Below, piece by piece: positions 31 to 21,870 of a stretch of 22,161 nt of DNA. The DNA lies in the NCBI GenBank assembly GCA_001687465.1, contig LVLI01000096.1:1-22161 (forward strand). Reading direction: 5' to 3'. Below the pieces are notes generated by a model that was not told the origin of the DNA, made no database searches, and worked only from the letters and a program-made list of their open reading frames with translations. The stretch is from Halocafeteria seosinensis (Eukaryota; Sar; Bigyra; Bicosoecida). Position numbers and translations under genes: made by a program. The stretch's first letter is position 1, and each line of letters begins with the position of its first letter.

Positions 31-188
31 AAAAGCAACGGGCAAACTACTTTTTCATGTTATTCTGCCACTTTACGACACTTTGCTAACAGCATTTACA
101 TCAATTCTACCGGTGAAAGCTTCATTATACCCATATCGTTGTATATACTGTACTTGGAGTGCTTCCGATACGTGTATTTCCGATAATC

Positions 189-1050
189 ATGGCAGCAAGG
201 TCTCCAACCGAGGTACGTGTTGCTGAACTTGAGAATTTAGCGTCCCTGTTTAGGATGATGGAGTGTACAAACGCTAAGCCGGATACGGCAAAGCAAAGTC
301 AATAACATTTCTCACCTTTTATTCTGAACAGAGTTCCCAAGAGGGACAGACGGCTGCTGTGGAAGATCGAGGACATCCTGCCAGCGAGGTACTTCTGCTT
401 GAAATATGCAGCGAGGTGAAATGCTTAATATGCTCTCTCGTATGAGTACACAGCAATCGTCTGAGGATACCTGTCAAATTGAACCGTCGTTGGAAGCATA
501 TGGCGAAGCACTGCACGAAGTATGTACCCAGATTGTGCCAATCCGTAGTGCTGCTCGGCCTACTACCCTTTTCCAAATATAACAGGAAGAATTGGGTTTG
601 GTTGTGAGCTTACCACAAACATTGGCACCAACATTGGACTCTATTTTCCCTCTCCCTGAATCCGCTGAAGATCGAGCGATGTTTTACAAGCTTTGCCAAC
701 AACGACCTGCGTATATTGATGAAAAATCGTTCTGCGACTTAGTCAACAAGGTCATGGGCCCGATACGAACGAAGCAGGAGCTAATTGGGAAGGCCGCATT
801 AACTCGCGTGATCCTACGGCTGTATAAAACCTTCGCCTACTCTCGAAGCGGCGTGAAGGAATACCTAACGGAAGCTGGCACTCTCTTGGGGATAATCCAA
901 ACGCTGACGTATACGACGAGGATGAAACGGCTAGCCCATGGAAAAGCGTCTCGAGCTTACGGACTGCAAAATACGATTAACTTCACTAACAACGGTTATG
1001 TTGGCGTCATTGTTTTTCGGTTGCATATTCTTGAACGAGGTACAAGGTAG
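189..1050 (+). pseudogene. Unidentified ORF remnants inside the left element
   Basis: I do not recognise this protein. An ATG at 189 opens about 38 codons to a stop near 305. Further open stretches in shifting frames run through about 415-582 (with EMLNMLSRMSTQQ) and 592-1050 (about 152 codons, with ESAEDRAMFYKL and SFCDLVNKVMGPI). The last stretch has protein-like composition but no ATG at its start. No known domain is visible. The position between the left inverted repeat and the transposase suggests an element-encoded ORF or the lost N-terminal part of the transposase. A splice acceptor-like tract ends near 330 (TTATTCTGAACAG), but its matching donor is weak, so I call this broken rather than spliced. 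Confidence 0.3.
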
Positions 1051-2400: not shown

Positions 2401-3458
2401 GCGCCGCAACGAAGAAGCGGATTCAACGTGAAGCGTCAAATATTTTACTCCGAGAACGAAGAGCGTACCGTGATCTCGTTTTTCGAGAGGAATGACTGTA
2501 GATATCGAATTGTACCGGACGTTTGCGCATGTTGGTCGTCTCCCGCCATGCAAAAGTCGGCGGAGCTCTACCAGGATCACTTCGACAGTACACACAACAT
2601 TCCGATAGACGGTCTTCAATTAAACAAAACGAAGGCACAGCTTTATCAGTTCGTGACGCCGTCAAAAGAAGGCCAGGTCCTAGTTCTTGTGCAGGCGCTC
2701 GCTTATGGAGAAAGCGAGGCTGTAACCACCGTAATCCTGAAGTTCATTCACGAGCTTCTGGGGGCAGTTCCGCCGGGCGTGATCATCTCAGATGTTGCAG
2801 AGGGATTTCGAAAAGCTGTACATGAGGTGTGGCCTCAGGGAATTCATAAGTCATGTGGGTACCATCTGATTGTCAACTGGAACAAGCGATTCACTAAGTT
2901 CCAGAACCGAGACGACGTACTTCCAGGCAAGATCCTACTACGAAAGGCTGCTACTACCATAGACATTTTTCAGTCTAAAGGATATTGGGACGAGCTGGAG
3001 ACGCTTTGTCAGGCAAACTTGTCGGAAAAACATGCAGATTTCATCGAATACTATCGGGATAACTTGAGCTTTTGGACTCTCGCGGGGATTCCGAAGAGCG
3101 TTTACGTGGGTTACTCTTTTGCGAACAGTATCACTGAAGTGCCAACCATATGGTTAAGGGGCAGGATATAACCCACGCCACCAGCACGCTTCGAGTAATA
3201 TACATCGCATGTTCGACTTTCGATCGTTCTGTGATAACCCCAGATGTGATGACGTGTCCGCCTATTATCTCCGCAAAACTTGAGGGATCGACGACGCGAA
3301 ATAGAACGGAGCTGTTGAAAACGCTGAAAGATTGCTCTTCACCAGTAAAATGGGATGGTGTACCCGACACCCTAACGAACCGCTTCCTGGAAGTGCTGAT
3401 ACGAAGGTTTAGACTGACCCTGACATCCAGCATTCCCAGAGACTGGCTGGAAAACTAA
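2401..3458 (+). pseudogene. MULE-type DDE transposase remnant
   Basis: The open frame from 2428 (247 codons) carries the MULE transposase core. FDSTHNIP holds the likely first catalytic Asp (residue 53). PPGVIISDVAEGFRKAV holds the second (residue 122), followed by HKSCGYH, the C-x2-H pair typical of MULE/FAR1 proteins. SITEV (E237) is the likely catalytic Glu. Right after this Glu, at about 3139-3141, a missing base shifts the reading frame; the next frame (3150-3458) continues with NHMVKGQDITHATS, the expected stretch after the Glu. A second shift lies near 3440. Upstream, 2401-2485 encodes a Lys/Arg-rich segment in another frame. The gene cannot make an intact enzyme. The assignment rests on pattern recognition of these motifs. 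Confidence 0.65.
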
Positions 3459-8084: not shown

Positions 8085-8090
8085 TTTATT
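8085..8090 (-). terminator. AATAAA overlapping the stop codon of the ubiquitin-fold gene
   Basis: The minus strand reads ATGATTCAATAAATG. The canonical poly(A) hexamer AATAAA includes the TAA stop. Cleavage would then be expected about 10-30 bases downstream, leaving a very short 3' UTR. Confidence 0.35.
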
Positions 8091-8971
8091 GAATCATGCA
8101 ACATGCTACCATACCAATCCTCGTGGCCGAGGGCCTCACCGGTTGCTGTTCGTCGGAATTTTGTTTAGCTCCTCCCAGCCGGCTTGATGACGGTGTATAT
8201 AAAGGGCTCGTCTGTACCGTTCCTATGCCCTGTCCATGTGATCCACCTTGACCACTAGCGATTTCGTATGGTGGCTGTGACCTCACCGGCTGCTGTACCT
8301 TGGAATTTTGGTTAGCTCCTCCCAGTCGGACGGTACCGAGGACAAGATGAAGAGTAGCTCCTTCCTGAACCTTATATGCTCCTATTGGTTGCCCATCGTA
8401 CAACCGTGTACCCGCAAAAATCAGTTGCTGCTGATCCGGGGGGATTTCTGAAACTCGCTGAATCTCAAGTTTGACAAGCTGCAGACACGACGTGGCTAGG
8501 AAAAACTATAAGTACTAAACCGTACAGTCAAGCCAGACTACTAACATACGTAAACGTCCTGCTGGAGGTTGATTGGAACTGAATACGTTTTACCTGTTAG
8601 AGTTTTCACACTGCGATTATTATAGTTCAGAACCGTAGGTAACATCATAAATTTACAAAGCTTCGCATTGGTTCAGAAAGGGTAAAGGAAGAAAAGCAAA
8701 AAAGAGTTTCTACTCACGTTATATTCACAGTCTGGCCACCAAATGTTGGGTGCAAAGGGCTTATCTGTGATGACTCTTGTGCCGAGCTTTGGTTAGTGGT
8801 CCCAACCTGCGGAGCTTCTGAAGGATGTACTGGAGGCTCTTCCATCAGGTAGCTTGGGGGTGGTTGGCCACCGCCAGTGCCACTGCTAGCAGTGCCGTAG
8901 GCGAATGTATAGCTTGGAGGAGGTTCCCCTGCCGCCGGAAGGTGTTGATTATGACTGGAATACGGGTCCAT
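8086..8971 (-). CDS. Ubiquitin-fold protein with PPxY motifs and a CaaX box
   Basis: Three exons (8971-8718, 8610-8550, 8478-8086; introns 107 and 71 bp with GTGAGT and GTATGT donors) give 235 aa. Residues 1-81 are a Pro/Ser/Gly-rich tail with two PPPSY (PPxY) motifs, the usual ligands of WW domains such as those of NEDD4-type ligases. Residues about 82-159 are a ubiquitin fold: [29 protein letters not shown]. Across both splice joins the spacing equals that of ubiquitin. The Ile44, His68 and Val70 patch is kept (I125, H149, V151), as are Lys6, 11 and 27, while the positions of Lys29, 33, 48 and 63 are changed. After LVL comes GTV-RLGG-A, a diglycine followed by a longer tail. The protein ends CCMIQ, a CaaX box (probably farnesylated) with an adjacent Cys. 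The start is the first ATG after an in-frame stop. CaaX-ended ubiquitin-fold proteins (UBL3/MUB) are the nearest functional analogues; a prenylated, membrane-bound adaptor is inferred. Confidence 0.85.
8133..8331 (-). repeat. Duplicated 16-residue block in the ubiquitin-fold protein
   Basis: The protein has [16 protein letters not shown] right after the ubiquitin fold and [16 protein letters not shown] about 45 residues later. The DNA copies (about 8133-8180 and 8283-8331) are also similar, so this is an internal duplication that copies the diglycine as well. Confidence 0.75.
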
Positions 8972-9535: not shown

Positions 9536-9741
9536 CTACTCTTCTTCTATTCTATCCTCTCCGTCCAGCAACGTGCCAATGCGGTTATATCTGACGACCA
9601 TTATACTTTCAAGCCGTTCACTACTCAGACGAGTCCTTCGATTAATGCCAGCAATACTGAAGGAGCTTTCGGCAGTGGCTGTAGATGCTGGTATAGCCAG
9701 CAAGCACTTCACCACAGAATTTTTGGTGCGTCCAGTAGCAC
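9536..9741 (-). pseudogene. hAT transposase C-terminal (dimerisation) fragment
   Basis: The minus strand encodes about 67 codons ending at TAG 9536-9538: CLLAIPASTATAESSFSIAG, then INRRTRLSSERLESIMVVRY. This is the hAT-family dimerisation motif ('LaiPASta.aESsFS..G....RR.RLs.e.le..m..r.N'). There is no start codon, and the frame is cut at 9742 by the inverted-repeat element. The rest of the hAT transposase is not found on either side of that element, so this is a relic. Confidence 0.75.
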
Positions 9742-9773
9742 TACCCTAGGATGCAGAAATAAGGGCCGATTCT
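9742..9773 (+). repeat. Left 32-bp terminal inverted repeat
   Basis: Exact reverse complement of 11100-11131. A small palindrome (GGTAACTTGAAGTTACC) follows at about 9776-9792. Confidence 0.9.
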
Positions 9774-11364: not shown

Positions 11365-14098
11365 CTATGTAGCTGCAAGGACAACCACAGTTATAAAAAA
11401 CGTTGTATACAATCCCAACATATAAAAGCCAAACGGCCGTTTCATTCGAAACCCTTGTAAGGGTACCAATACTAAGCATGATACCGCAGCCGTGAGTATG
11501 AACCCAAATGCAACATACACCAACGTATTACTGGATTTACCGGGTTGGAGATGCTCTGAACCATGCTTGGCTATACCGACCAGATTCGAGAGGCCAAGCC
11601 CAAAAAGCACATTAAAACTAGGACCAGCATGACAAGCCGCTATTGCCATATTGGGAAGACCTTCCTTAGCTACAGAAAGATCCGCTGCCATGTCACCTGC
11701 ATAATACTCGACAGAAGATCCAAAAAAATATACATGTATGCTCTTACAACTGGCATAACCAAAAAGAGAGCTTACTACTGGAATTGCCAACTGCGAGAAT
11801 TGCAATACCTAAAACGGTTGAAGGGATGGATAGAATCAATCCAATGGCATGCAATATAGTGACTGCAAGGCATAATCGTTGAACATTTTCAGCACATCAG
11901 GGATACCTCGTTCAAATCATACCAATTTCATGAGCCGCATTAATGATCCATGATACACTGGAGAAGAAAGCAAATATCGTGAGGGCTCCACGAAGCACAC
12001 CGTGCGGCAATTGTCCATCGCCTCCAGGAACTTTGCGCGGTAAAACGAAAAAGAGGACGACTGTGCCGAGTATCCCTGCTATCAGTGGTAGAGCATACCA
12101 CGGGAACTGTATCAACCCATACTCACACACTTAGAGGTGCAGATCGTTGTTCCCCTGTGACATATACACAGCACTTACTATGCTTCCAGCAATACCTTTT
12201 TTGAACAACTCAGCAGGCTCGCTAAGCAGTCTCAGACCAGTTATGACAATCCATGGGGAGCCAAAAAATGGAGTCACTGAACACAACTAACGACTAGATC
12301 GGTTGAAGAATGAAAATGAAGCCGCAAACAGGTACTTACCAGTCACGTATCTCCAATCGTACTCGTCCTCGCTCAAAAGCGGTACGGACAGATTGCGAAC
12401 AAATTGACTTGGGAGCAAAAGGTAGTTCAGGAAACAGTACAACGCCGATCCCGGGCCGCAATGTTTGTCAATAAACGACTTCTCAGAGATGTCTTCCACT
12501 TCAGACCCTTTCGAAGGAATCAAATCCTTTGTGAGTTCTTCAGGTTGATCGGGTGTAATATGTGCATCTTGGGCACCTAGACGCGATGACTCCCTCCGCA
12601 TAGTAAGGAGTTCTTCTTCCTCCTCCGCCTCATATCGGAGAGAGCTCAATAATTGATCAACTCTCCTGTGAGCGTGCGGAAACAAAACCGGATCAGGATG
12701 ATCTTCGAACATGTGCCGCAATTCTTCGCGAGTGAGGTGGTGGGCAGGGTGAATATCTGTATCCCACAAAGCCCCAGAATGGACTGAATGCCTCCGGGAG
12801 GATGTTGCATCGTTGTTGGGGGAGTGTACAGAATATGAGTTTCCGACAGGCTTCACTTCATCCTTGAGGATGAATGCCAACTTTTCGTCCATATTCTCAC
12901 GCCCAATTTTTCCTGTGCTCGCTGACCTGCGCAAATCATCGCTCTCCAACTTCTCCTCTAACTTCTCGTCGGGGAGATTCTCACGTTTCACGTTCTCCGC
13001 GCGAGGAGTATTACCATTCATTTCTTTCAAGACTAAGTCGCTGGATGAAAGTTCATGACTAGCCTTTTCATAACCTTGCTCCTTTCGGCTTTTGTATATG
13101 CGGTGTCCAACTACCGCTACAGTCGCGTACAGGACGTAGAGGATCAGAAGTCCTGCTGCTTGGCCGATTCCAAACTTGTTGAAGTGGAAGTTGACAAATA
13201 GGTAAATGATTCCTATCGTATAAAACACAACATCTCGCAAGAATGGGCGACGTTTCAATAAAAACTCCTTGGATATCAGTACAACAGCCCCCAAGATCGC
13301 CGATTGCACAAACATGCCTGCACCCAGGATAGCGGATAGTCCAACTGAAGACTGGCCCGAAGAGTAAGCAGCGAGGGAGGAAAAGACATCTGCAGTACAT
13401 CCAAAAAGTGATGAGCGTAAATTATACTCCTGTTTATCTTTAAAGTGAAACAAAGTTCTTGGGAAGAAGGCATACCTGGAGCACCATTTCCAAAGCTCAG
13501 AAACGTGACTCCAGCTGCATTGGGCGACAGGTTCAACATGTCTACGATTACTTGAAGCGTAGGACAGAAATACGCATCTGCCGAGTTAGCAAGCATGTAG
13601 AACATGTACGCCAGCCAAAAGATCATGCCAACCCAAAGCACTCCTTTATAGTCGCTCCACTCGCACTCGTATAGCATTATATAATTTATAAACCCAGCTT
13701 TCTGTCAAGCAAACAGCACAATGTTTCCATTGTTTGGCTCACATTCCATTACACACTTCAATTGATCGTATGCACGCCTAGCGAATCTCACTTACAGTAC
13801 TCGAGCAGCCAGGAGTGTCGCAGCCGAACTTGTCCGTCAGTTGCTCCGCGCACGATGAAAAGTTTGATGCTTCCAGTGTGCGCCATGGCTCCAATATCCC
13901 TCCGAAATTGCTATATGAAGTCGTCTCTCTTTCTTCCGTTCTCCCTCGTATCAAGTTTCCGTTCGTGTCTGCTCCTTGCTGCGGCCGACTTCCTTTGATC
14001 CGGAAAAGGCCCGCCGTGGTCGCTACTGCCAAGAAGAGCACCAGTGTCAAGCAGCGGACAGAAGCCCGCCGAACCTTTTGAACTTCGGTAGGGGACAT
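11365..14098 (-). CDS. Na+/Ca2+ exchanger, NCLX/CCX type, copy A
   Basis: Seven exons: 14098-13796, 13701-13476, 13389-12340, 12276-12179, 12106-11923, 11862-11776 and 11696-11365. All introns are GT-AG (60-94 bp) and the frame closes exactly at 759 aa. The N-terminal membrane segment (VRCLTLVLFLAVATTAGLF) is a signal anchor or peptide. The Cys-rich KFGCDTPGC and FINYIMLYECEW precede the first transport repeat, TFLSFGNGAPDVFSSLAAYS (about residues 167-186). A long, charged middle loop (roughly 260-500) has HPAHHLTREELRHMFEDHPD and a run of Glu. The second repeat, AVGNSSSDMAADLSVAKEG, is split by intron 6. GNGAPD and GNS are the ion-binding motifs of the SLC8B1 (NCLX)/plant CCX families, which move Na+ or Li+ against Ca2+ across mitochondrial or other membranes. 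The substrate and membrane are inferred. ATG 14098 aligns with the start of copy B. Confidence 0.88.
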
Positions 14099-15628: not shown

Positions 15629-18383
15629 TTATCGCGTAGCCGCCAACGCAATCACAGTGATGAAGAATGTTGTATATAATCCCAGCATGTAAAACCCAAA
15701 TGGCCGCTTCATTCGAAACCCTTGCAAGGGCACTAACAACAGACAGGAAGCCAGTCCAGTAAGAATGAAACCAAAGGCCACATGCACCATCGTGATATCT
15801 TTATCTGATTTTGGTTGTAGGTGTTCGGAATGATGATTCTTAGCGATTCCTACCAAGTTTGAAAGTCCAAGTCCGAAGAGCACATTGAAACTTGGGGAAG
15901 CATGGCACGCAGCGACTGCCATTTGGGGGAGACCTTCCTTGGCAACAGATACATCAGCCGCCATGTCGCCTGCAACCACATTACAGAAGAGAGCTGCGGG
16001 CAAGTGTATGGTTGACTCTGCATATCAAAATAGACTCACTACTGGAGTTTCCAATCGCAAGTATTGTGATTCCTAAAACTGTCGCCGGGATGATCAGAAT
16101 TTTGCCAATTGCATCTAATATGCTCACTGCACATATGCATTTTCGTACTCACTTAAGACGGTTCAAAGACGAATCGCCCTGCGCAGTACTTACCGATCTC
16201 ATGCGCAGCATTGACTATCCAGGAGACGCTCGTCAGAAACGCGAATGCAGTAAGACAGCCACGGAGAATACCATGAGGCAGTGTGCCTTCCCCGCCCGGA
16301 ACTTTACGGGGTAAAACGAAGAACAGAACAATGGTACCGACAGTACCGAAAATCAGCGCGAGTGCATACCAGGGGAACTGCATCACCACAAGATACCATA
16401 ACGATTATTTGGTAATTATTGAGGGAAGTGTGAACATACAGAAGTGCTTCCAGTGATGCCCTGAGTAAACACGATAGAGGGCGCACTTAGCAACCTAATA
16501 CCAGTGATGACAATCCATAGCGAACCAAAAAACGGGGTCGCTGAAAAGAGACCAATTACAATGTACATCCATATGGTTCCCTTGAAAAAGCAACGGTCAA
16601 CGGTTACTTACCAGTTACGTATCTCCAATCGTAGCCTTCCTCGCTTAGGAGCGGTACCGAAATATTCCGAGCAAAATTGCTAGGGAGTAAAAGGTAGCTC
16701 AAGAGACAGTACAACGTAGAACTTGGGCCGCAGTGTTTATCAATAAACGACTGTGAATAGAACTCACTCGACACTGACTCCTTGGCGGCAATCAAATTCG
16801 TCGTAATTTCTTCCGGATGCCGGCAATCTGCTTCAGGACACTCGGCGCGTGACAGCTCATTCCTAAACGTCAAAATTTCCTCTTCCTCTTCTGGCTCGAA
16901 CCGCAAAGACCCAAGCAAATGATCAATCCTCTTGTGCGTGTGCCGAAACAACACTGGATCTGGATGATCCTCGAAGAGATGCCGCCAGCCCTCCCGATTG
17001 AGATGATGGTGTGGATACTGTTCCTTATCCCAAGGCGCAGTCGAATGCACCGAGTGCCTCCGATAGGCATCTTCAGCATCAGATGAGTCAGCATATTGCA
17101 CTGAGTAAGGATTGACTCCTTCTTGTTTCAATATCGCGGCGAATACTCCCGGTGTACTCTCTTGTCTAACGTGTCCTGTACTTGCACGGCGCCTATCTCC
17201 AGGTTCACTGCTGTCCGCATGCTCTTCTGTGGCTGCGGGACCCCCATTGGTGTACGTAAGGCCGAACGACTTAGTCTTGCCCTGTTGGTCACTATTAATG
17301 CCCTTTGAGGTCGCTCCATCGCCGTGAAGGTCGCGCCGGTCCGACATTTCTAAAGGGGTTTGTTTCGCGTAGCGTTTCCCGCGTCGGTACACATGATGGC
17401 CAACGATCGCCACAGTTGCGTACACAATATACAAAATCAGCAGACCAAGTGCCTGATAAATCCCAAAGGTGTTAAAGTGGAAATTGATGAATAGATATAT
17501 CACTCCAATCAGATAAAACGACACATCTCGCATGAAAGGACGGCGTTTCAACGTGAATTCTTTAGAAATCAGCACGACCGATCCGAGAATTGCCGTGGAG
17601 GCGAACATACCAGCACCTAGGATTGCGGACAAACCAACAGACGACTGCCCCGAAGAATAGGCGGCCAGTGAAGAAAAGACATCTGCATGTTTTCAGTGCA
17701 TTGTGAGTTCTAATTAGTCATTCACTTAGGCGAAGCGTTGATAACAATCCGGACGTACCTGGAGCCCCATTTCCAAAGCTCAGAAAGGTAACCCCTGCAG
17801 CGTTGGGGGAAAGATTTAACATATCCACAATGACTTGAAGCGTTGAGCAAAAGTAGGCATCTGCCGAATTAGCAAGCAAGTAAAACATGTACGCCAGCCA
17901 GAAGATCAATCCGACCCAGACCAGTGCCTTGTATTCTCCCCAGTGACACTCGTAAATCATGATATAATTGAGGAAGCCACTTTTCTGCATTCCAGTGGAG
18001 GCACGCGAATTTGGTATCGTATGTTAAACATTTGCCGTCAAATAATTTGTACACCTTACAGAACTTTCACAACCGGCTTTATCACAGCCGAACTTATTCT
18101 GTATCCTCTCCGCGCACGTCTGCTCCCCCAGGGACCGTGCGGAGGTAATGGCTTCCCAGGAAACTCTGGAGTCCGTAAGCGCGTCGTATGAATCCGTCAC
18201 CCATCTCCCTCCTCCTCCCTCGGTGAATTCACCATCCCCATCGTGTCTAGTATCCTTTCGTCCATCTGCTGGAGATTGCGCGATGTGTACCATTCCGCCC
18301 AAGATCCCCACGGTCAAAAGCAGCAGCAGGAGTGCTGCTCGGACAGATGTCCGCCGGACTTGGTTGAACTCCTTGGACACCAT
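15629..18383 (-). CDS. Na+/Ca2+ exchanger, NCLX/CCX type, copy B
   Basis: Seven exons: 18383-18060, 17984-17759, 17682-16612, 16540-16440, 16377-16194, 16126-16040 and 15969-15629, all GT-AG, giving 777 aa. Exons 2, 5 and 6 have exactly the lengths of those in copy A (226, 184, 87 bp), and every intron has the same phase, so the two arose by tandem duplication. Key motifs are VRAALLLLLLTVGILGGMVH (signal anchor), KFGCDKAGC, FLNYIMIYECHW, TFLSFGNGAPDVFSSLAAYS (first repeat, about residues 174-193), HHHLNREGWRHLFEDHPDPV and a Glu run in the loop, then AIGNSSSDMAADVSVAKEG (second repeat). The start is ATG 18383; the frame is open further upstream but only from a TTG. Function as for copy A: a cation/Ca2+ exchanger, with the membrane unknown. 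The loop is the most divergent part, so the copies may differ in regulation. Confidence 0.88.
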
Positions 18384-18984: not shown

Positions 18985-20620
<1,636 letters not shown>

Positions 20621-20740: not shown

Positions 20741-21838
20741 CTAGAACTTGAATACCATGTCTTTGGAGTAGTTCATGTCCTTGAGCATCCCCTCTACCTC
20801 TCCTTGGTCAGACTTGCTCTTCTTGTCACCACTGATGGCTTTCATCATCCCAGGAGGCCCGCAAACCATGATTAGATGGTTTTCATCTGGGGGTGGCATA
20901 GTTTCGGCTAGCATCTGCTTGTTCGGTCTTCCTTTGTACCCGTCCCATTCCTGTGATTTAGGGCTGTCCGCTGCGTAGTACACTTTGAAGCGAGGGTGAA
21001 GCATGGCCAACGCATCCAGCCTGTTCTTCAGGATTATGTCTGCGATGAGCCAAGGAATACGTGGGTACCTGATAACACAAACAAAAACTTCACAATCTAA
21101 ACTCGAGTAGCGTACCATCTTCACTGACGTTGCAATACAAGAGCCTTATTTCCGTGTTGTCCCGAGGATCGTCCAAGAGATGCTGCAAATCCGAAAAGCG
21201 CGACAATTACACAAAGAAGTTGAGTCCAGAAGACGCACCACACCAACCTGAATGACCTGTAGCATGGGTGTGATACCACTACCTCCTGCAACAAGACCAA
21301 TGGCATTCTTCATATTCCGTTCAATTTTCATTTTCTGGAAGGGCCCCTTGACTTCTACCTCATCTCCGGGTTGCTTGTTGACCAGATGCTTGCTGACCTT
21401 CCCTTGAGGATAGCCTTTCACCACAAGATCAAAGTACCCCTTTTGGTTGTCTTTCGTTGTGGGAGTGTAAGGGCGGATGACATTCTTCCCATCAATTTCG
21501 GCCTTGGCAACGAGGCAGGATGCCGTTTCCAACCCAGTGACATGATGCTCCGAAGGCAGATCAATCCGCAGGCGCTTGGTGTCGTGCGTCAGGGGTTTGA
21601 CGTCTCGAACTTTGAATTTTTTGAAATTGTTGGGGTCCAGAGCTTGCTTAACGATGAACTTGTCATCGTCCTCATTACCTGCGTTTGCTCCATTCTGTTG
21701 CTCGGCAAACACGGTGCTGGGTGTTGTCCAGCTGCCAAAACTGGAGGCACCAAACGCCAAACTAGCCGCCGCAGCTAGAGGAGCGCCCCCACGACGAGCC
21801 CACATGGCGGCATTCTGGAAGAAAAAGCTGCCTTGCAT
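20741..21838 (-). CDS. NADH-cytochrome b5 reductase, probably mitochondrial
   Basis: Three exons (21838-21248, 21182-21116, 21039-20741; introns 65 and 76 bp) give 318 aa. The N-terminus (MQGSFFFQNAAMWARRGG, then APLAAAASLAFGASSFGSW) looks like a mitochondrial presequence followed by a membrane segment, as in the yeast Mcr1 type. The FAD domain has RPYTPT (122-127) and GKVSKHL. The NADH domain has VAGGSGITPMLQVI (183-196), CGPPGM and the C-terminal MVFKF. The enzyme transfers electrons from NADH through FAD to cytochrome b5, for lipid desaturation, sterol synthesis or redox defence. Intron 2 has two possible acceptors; the one ending CATCGCAG at 21040 keeps the frame (SEDDIILKNRLDALA). The start ATG 21838 is the first in frame after the candidate 5' UTR intron. 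Confidence 0.92.
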
Positions 21839-21870
21839 TCTCTAGATTCAGCTTCAGCAGAAATGCTAGT

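Follow-up and report, generated by a model that had tools for sequence, protein, structure and literature searches.

Could a ubiquitin fold set between a proline-rich arm and a prenylation-like C-terminus serve as a membrane-held copy of the ubiquitin signal? The question is raised by a gene on the minus strand of contig LVLI01000096.1 from the bicosoecid Halocafeteria seosinensis (30.6-Mb assembly, 605 contigs), of which positions 1 to 22,161 were analysed (the window). The gene encodes a 235-residue protein in which two PPPSY motifs are followed by a ubiquitin fold, an 82-residue disordered tail that contains an internal duplication, and the C-terminus CCMIQ, a CaaX box with a second cysteine before it (C-CaaX). 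We propose that this protein is a membrane-tethered, non-conjugatable ubiquitin mimic working like the ubiquitin-fold proteins UBL3/MUB, and put the probability of this reading at roughly 0.55.

A transcript-supported orphan gene

The protein is encoded, with its stop codon, by three minus-strand exons that join in frame into a coding sequence of 708 nt (Table 1); the exon 1 reading frame is open from 9028, preceded by a stop. A protein search retrieved a EukProt entry that takes its name from GECG01006869.1, carries the label 'ORF type:complete' and is 100% identical over 235/235 residues. The form of this accession is presumably that of a transcriptome shotgun assembly (TSA) record, and the support it provides comes via a predicted protein rather than via RNA reads. 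The identity of the GECG01006869.1-derived protein over all 235 residues supports both the splicing and the CCMIQ end. The three-exon gene is real and transcript-supported, and its product is an orphan. The original prediction, made from the DNA letters alone, had given the coordinates, the three exons, the two PPPSY motifs, the ubiquitin fold and the CCMIQ end, all as described here. It had also asked for transcripts that keep this structure; the EukProt entry retains all three exons and CCMIQ.

A ubiquitin fold with its binding patch but not its conjugating end

The fold is predicted with a predicted local distance difference test score (pLDDT) of ~97 in a structure model, and a Pfam search of the protein matched PF00240 (ubiquitin) at E 5.5e-19. 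Aligned with the genome's own polyubiquitin, 35/72 residues of the fold are identical (49%), including identical runs totalling 25 residues. The fold itself is thus confident, and the earlier wording 'very close to ubiquitin' was somewhat strong. Residues L8, I44, G47, H68 and V70 of ubiquitin are retained, as had been noted for the Ile44/His68/Val70 patch, whereas F4, R42, K48, K63, R72, R74, G75 and G76 are not. Gly occupies the position of R72 and R/L those of G75/G76, the LRLRGG end has no match, and an internal GlyGly, two residues beyond the G75/G76 positions, is non-terminal. Since the Ile44 patch is kept and K48, K63, R72 and the terminal GlyGly are lost, the alignment suggests that the fold should be bound by ubiquitin-binding proteins without being conjugated. 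Ubiquitin and polyubiquitin also differ from this protein in lacking its long disordered arms and CaaX end.

The C-CaaX end and candidate processing enzymes

The whole protein has two cysteines only, at positions −5 and −4, both in CCMIQ. A CaaX-like end arose in 0.09% of whole-protein shuffles and a C at −4 in 0.88% (100,000 shuffles each). The motifs tested (PPxY and CaaX) were chosen post hoc, and ubiquitin-family matches number at least 22 in the genome (21 besides this gene), so that the CaaX box alone is no proof; the placing of both cysteines at −5/−4 is a stronger argument than the CaaX-like end taken by itself. Gln as the X residue suits farnesyltransferase. Part of the tail between the fold and this end is an internal duplication: a 49-nt direct repeat occurs in two copies, 88% identical and 147 nt apart, giving a 49-codon period.

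Matches to the enzymes that would process such an end are present in the genome. PF00432 gave eight matches. Three prenyltransferase beta-like genes exceeded the cut-off (C117, C116 and C383), and a weak match on C62 fell short of it. The best match among solved structures was farnesyltransferase beta for the C383 gene (one 88-residue exon, E 3.1e-30), geranylgeranyltransferase-I beta for the C116 gene (E 4e-18) and Rab geranylgeranyltransferase beta for the C117 gene (E 1.6e-113). Prenyltransferase alpha-subunit repeats (PPTA) were found on two contigs, and ICMT and an Rce1-like protein had one genome match each (E 3.2e-23 and 2.3e-5, respectively).

Comparison with UBL3/MUB and proposed function

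UBL3/MUB is the closest known system. Human UBL3 has 117 residues; its fold occupies 10-88 and it ends in C113-C114-V-I-L, so that its CaaX end lies ~25-29 residues beyond the fold (PMC10511055). It has no cysteines other than C113 and C114, of which C114 carries the prenyl group (PMC6158211). On these accounts the two proteins share a ubiquitin (beta-grasp) fold with a C-terminal CaaX, the double-cysteine form of that end found in animal UBL3 (CCVIL), with no cysteines elsewhere in human UBL3 or here, a retained isoleucine patch, and the lack of a terminal GlyGly (PMC10511055, PMC6158211). They differ in that the present fold is 49% identical to ubiquitin, whereas the same report gives 13.1-24.7% identity for human UBL3 against other human ubiquitin-fold proteins, a comparison over lengths that may differ (PMC10511055). 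Moreover, an 81-residue PPxY arm precedes and an 82-residue tail follows the fold here, in contrast to the 117 residues of the entire UBL3 protein, and X is Gln rather than the Leu of human UBL3. The original prediction had held that known prenylated ubiquitin-fold proteins end right after the fold and resemble ubiquitin less closely. This contrast was overstated: four further proteins retrieved in the searches below, three of them degenerate polyubiquitins, also have a C-x-x-X terminus, and human UBL3 shares the double-cysteine C-CaaX and does not end right after its fold.

Membership in UBL3/MUB was considered and rejected, and the mechanism was retained. PF13881, which we take to be the profile covering UBL3/MUB, had no match in the protein at E ≤ 1 in the Pfam search, and the layout differs (fold at residues 82-153 of 235). 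PF13881 was likewise not found in the genome, a weak negative, as no control genome matched either. No UBL3 chain was among the 50 matches listed for the fold against solved structures, which says nothing either way on UBL3. By analogy, the protein probably works like UBL3, though it is not filed as a member, and it most likely originated by duplication of ubiquitin rather than from UBL3.

UBL3/MUB proteins of plants and human are described as binding group VI E2s on their back side and tethering them to membranes (PMC9001657; PMC10511055). The corresponding scheme for the present protein would be as follows. Farnesyltransferase would modify Cys232 of the CMIQ box, and the Rce1-like protease and ICMT would mature the prenylated end; Cys231 might contribute palmitate or some other attachment. 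The flexible ~80-residue tail would then hold the ubiquitin fold off the membrane, where the Leu8-Ile44-His68-Val70 patch could bind ubiquitin-binding surfaces (E2 backside, UIM, UBA, CUE) and so concentrate such proteins at the membrane, with the proline-rich arm and its two PPPSY motifs as a putative second docking site. A fuller version of this proposal is more tentative: an independent ubiquitin-derived, prenyl-anchored mimic, with an animal-UBL3-like C-CaaX and a PPxY arm, might form a bivalent membrane scaffold for ubiquitin-binding proteins in a eukaryote whose genome yielded no UBL3/MUB (the weak negative above). If this is true, the membrane-anchored ubiquitin fold arose more than once, which would suggest a general use for a fixed, lipid-held ubiquitin signal at membranes, and a fold far nearer to ubiquitin than that of UBL3 would offer a clean natural case for studying the ubiquitin-binding proteins drawn to an anchor of this kind.

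Relatives in protein databases and in the genome

Three protein-database searches, which depend on five-residue words in common and on comparable length and so may miss distant orthologues, led to 96 distinct proteins that were inspected. No other protein among them has the order PPxY, ubiquitin fold, CaaX, in keeping with the original statement that no described family was known to have it; nor does any title or abstract opening in the literature listed on prenylated or membrane-anchored ubiquitin-fold proteins describe that order. A PPxY motif and a Cys at −4 are combined in this protein only. One of the 96, P0034, has a single PPxY, situated within a ubiquitin repeat. Cys at −4 occurs in 5/96, namely this protein, P0003, P0040, P0042 and P0017; thus a CaaX-like end is found on 4/95 of the others. 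These four are like the present protein in having ubiquitin-like domains that end in C-x-x-X, and unlike it in having no PPxY.

P0003, P0040 and P0042, with three or four ubiquitin stretches each, are degenerate polyubiquitins ending in KCVLM, KCVLM and KCVFM, a possible prenylation box, and look like one family because these ends are similar. P0017 is a ubiquitin-fold protein with one ubiquitin stretch, a longer, dissimilar C-terminal part and the CaaX-like end SCTIM.

In the genome, exon 1 had no second copy at E ≤ 1, and a search with exon 3 returned, besides exon 3 itself, 10 matches that are ubiquitin or ubiquitin-like. None of the 11 matches read, out of the 21 other ubiquitin-family matches, had a CaaX box at its first in-frame stop, a reading that introns may shorten; L093 and L100 have CaaX-like strings, but past an earlier in-frame stop. 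PMC10511055 lists potential UBL3 orthologues with CaaX ends in unicellular algae and fungi, so that the mere presence of a CaaX ubiquitin fold in a unicellular eukaryote is no novelty. What appears to be new, judging by sequence, is a variant layout of membrane-anchored ubiquitin-fold proteins, with longer arms and no same-order relative found in the searches.

The PPxY arm and alternative explanations

Two or more PPxY motifs within the first 82 residues arose in 0.34% of shuffles, and two PPPSY motifs in 0/100,000. Adaptors of Nedd4-type ligases, among them the alpha-arrestins, Ndfip and LITAF, likewise carry several PPxY motifs on a disordered arm, and a histidine of class I marks the WW domains that bind PPxY, a rule derived from Nedd4 and YAP. 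The genome has 59 WW matches and 24 HECT matches, the latter at 12 places. No WW match adjoins a HECT match on the same strand in the genome profile search, which runs exon by exon and scores the best candidates, so that intron-split WW exons could be missed; the nearest WW-HECT pair, on C481, is ~3 kb apart and on opposite strands. When the flanks of 7/12 HECT places were scanned with a profile built from eight WW domains of the same genome, the HECT strand gave weak 6.0-8.5-bit matches without the WW signature. The class I histidine is present in 1/59 WW matches (on C59), and the reading frame that contains it has as its other Pfam match a C2HC zinc finger rather than an E3 domain; the residue at this position is Ser in C421, Pro in C106 and Lys in C333 (the last two by eye). 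Given one class I histidine among 59 WW matches, and with no gene seen that joins WW and HECT, the Nedd4 system may be absent from this lineage.

These results bear on the function first suggested for the protein, in which the PPxY motifs recruit Nedd4-type WW-HECT ligases to a membrane-anchored mimic for membrane-protein sorting. The two exact PPPSY motifs speak for it, as does yeast, where PY motifs of alpha-arrestins bind the WW domains of Rsp5 (PMC2515105). Unlike alpha-arrestins, however, the present protein matched no arrestin family of Pfam at E ≤ 1, and unlike Nedd4-type adaptors in general it has no WW-HECT partner seen in its genome. The lack of a same-strand pair, the weak flank matches and the single class I histidine make this model improbable, and recruitment of WW-domain E3 ligases, with no visible partner in the genome, is not supported. 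This is the part of the original interpretation that fell away; the transcript-derived protein, the domain order, the retained patch and the CaaX-enzyme matches all favor its membrane-anchored ubiquitin mimic.

Several observations nevertheless weigh against a membrane-tethered mimic. The tail alone, searched against 438 candidates, retrieved just this protein, and no homologue showing conservation of the tail or CaaX end; because of this self-only result the tail is an orphan sequence in which CaaX conservation is not demonstrable. CCMIQ sits in a model region of pLDDT <50. The two repeat copies differ at 3/16 residues and similarity ends with them, so that the tail looks loosely constrained. 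Among at least 22 ubiquitin-family matches, the chance of a CaaX-like end would be ~2% at the 0.09% rate, and that of a bare Cys at −4 ~18%. Finally, the ICMT, PPTA and Rce1-like families also match 5/14, 2/14 and 11/14 prokaryotic control genomes (4/14, 0/14 and 11/14 over the cut-off), so that these matches are supporting evidence, not proof, of CaaX enzymes. The tail search, the loosely kept duplication and the many ubiquitin-family matches, which make chance ends possible, would suit a soluble ubiquitin-like adaptor, its CaaX-like terminus a matter of chance, acting in the cytosol or nucleus via the ubiquitin patch and disordered arms. On the other hand, the protein's sole two cysteines lie exactly at −5 and −4, shuffling rarely produces such an end, and its Gln would fit the farnesyltransferase whose beta-like gene is present; we consider the soluble adaptor unlikely. 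A precursor of a conjugated modifier is less probable still. Cleavage after RLGG (residues 156-159) would remove the tail and expose GlyGly, as for SUMO and NEDD8, and the GlyGly ends 7 residues past the last-strand Leu as against 5 in ubiquitin. Yet R72 is replaced by Gly, the LRGG run reads RLGG and is displaced by two, RLGGA is found again in the duplicated tail, distant from the fold, and cleavage would discard the CaaX box. The membrane-tethered, non-conjugatable mimic is therefore the reading we prefer.

Features of the gene and its neighborhood

Table 1. Positions in the window of the gene's exons, introns, motifs and repeats
Feature	Position (nt)	Residues	Strand	Basis or detail
Exon 1: start Met, PPxY N-terminal arm, first ubiquitin-fold residues	8718..8971		-	ATG, GTGAGT donor; agrees with transcript-derived protein
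First PPPSY motif	8909..8923	17-21 (PPxY 18-21)	-	translation
Second PPPSY motif	8849..8863	37-41 (PPxY 38-41)	-	translation
Intron 1	8611..8717		-	107 nt, GT-AG (GTGAGT...CAG); missing in transcript-derived protein
Exon 2: VKTLTGKT segment of ubiquitin fold	8550..8610		-	splice sites, translation, transcript-derived protein
Intron 2	8479..8549		-	71 nt, GT-AG (GTATGT...CAG); missing in transcript-derived protein
Exon 3: remaining ubiquitin fold, tail, CCMIQ, stop	8086..8478		-	translation, transcript-derived protein
Ubiquitin fold, whole		82-153	-	spread over all three exons
Ubiquitin fold, exon 3 share	8335..8478	106-153	-	
Tail repeat, copy 1	8281..8329	16 residues	-	49-nt direct repeat, codon comparison
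Tail repeat, copy 2	8134..8182	16 residues	-	49-nt direct repeat, codon comparison
CCMIQ: CaaX box with second Cys before it	8089..8103	231-235	-	translation, transcript-derived protein

Elsewhere in the window, two neighboring tandem sodium/calcium exchanger-like genes (PF01699) lie at 12287-13585 and 16604-17692 on the minus strand. Transposon remnants of the hAT (9536-9745, minus strand; PF05699) and MULE (2401-3171, plus strand; PF10551) types are also present, together with a MOZ/SAS-type histone acetyltransferase exon at 19864-20223 (plus strand; PF01853) and an FAD-binding oxidoreductase frame at 21146-21841 (minus strand; PF00970).
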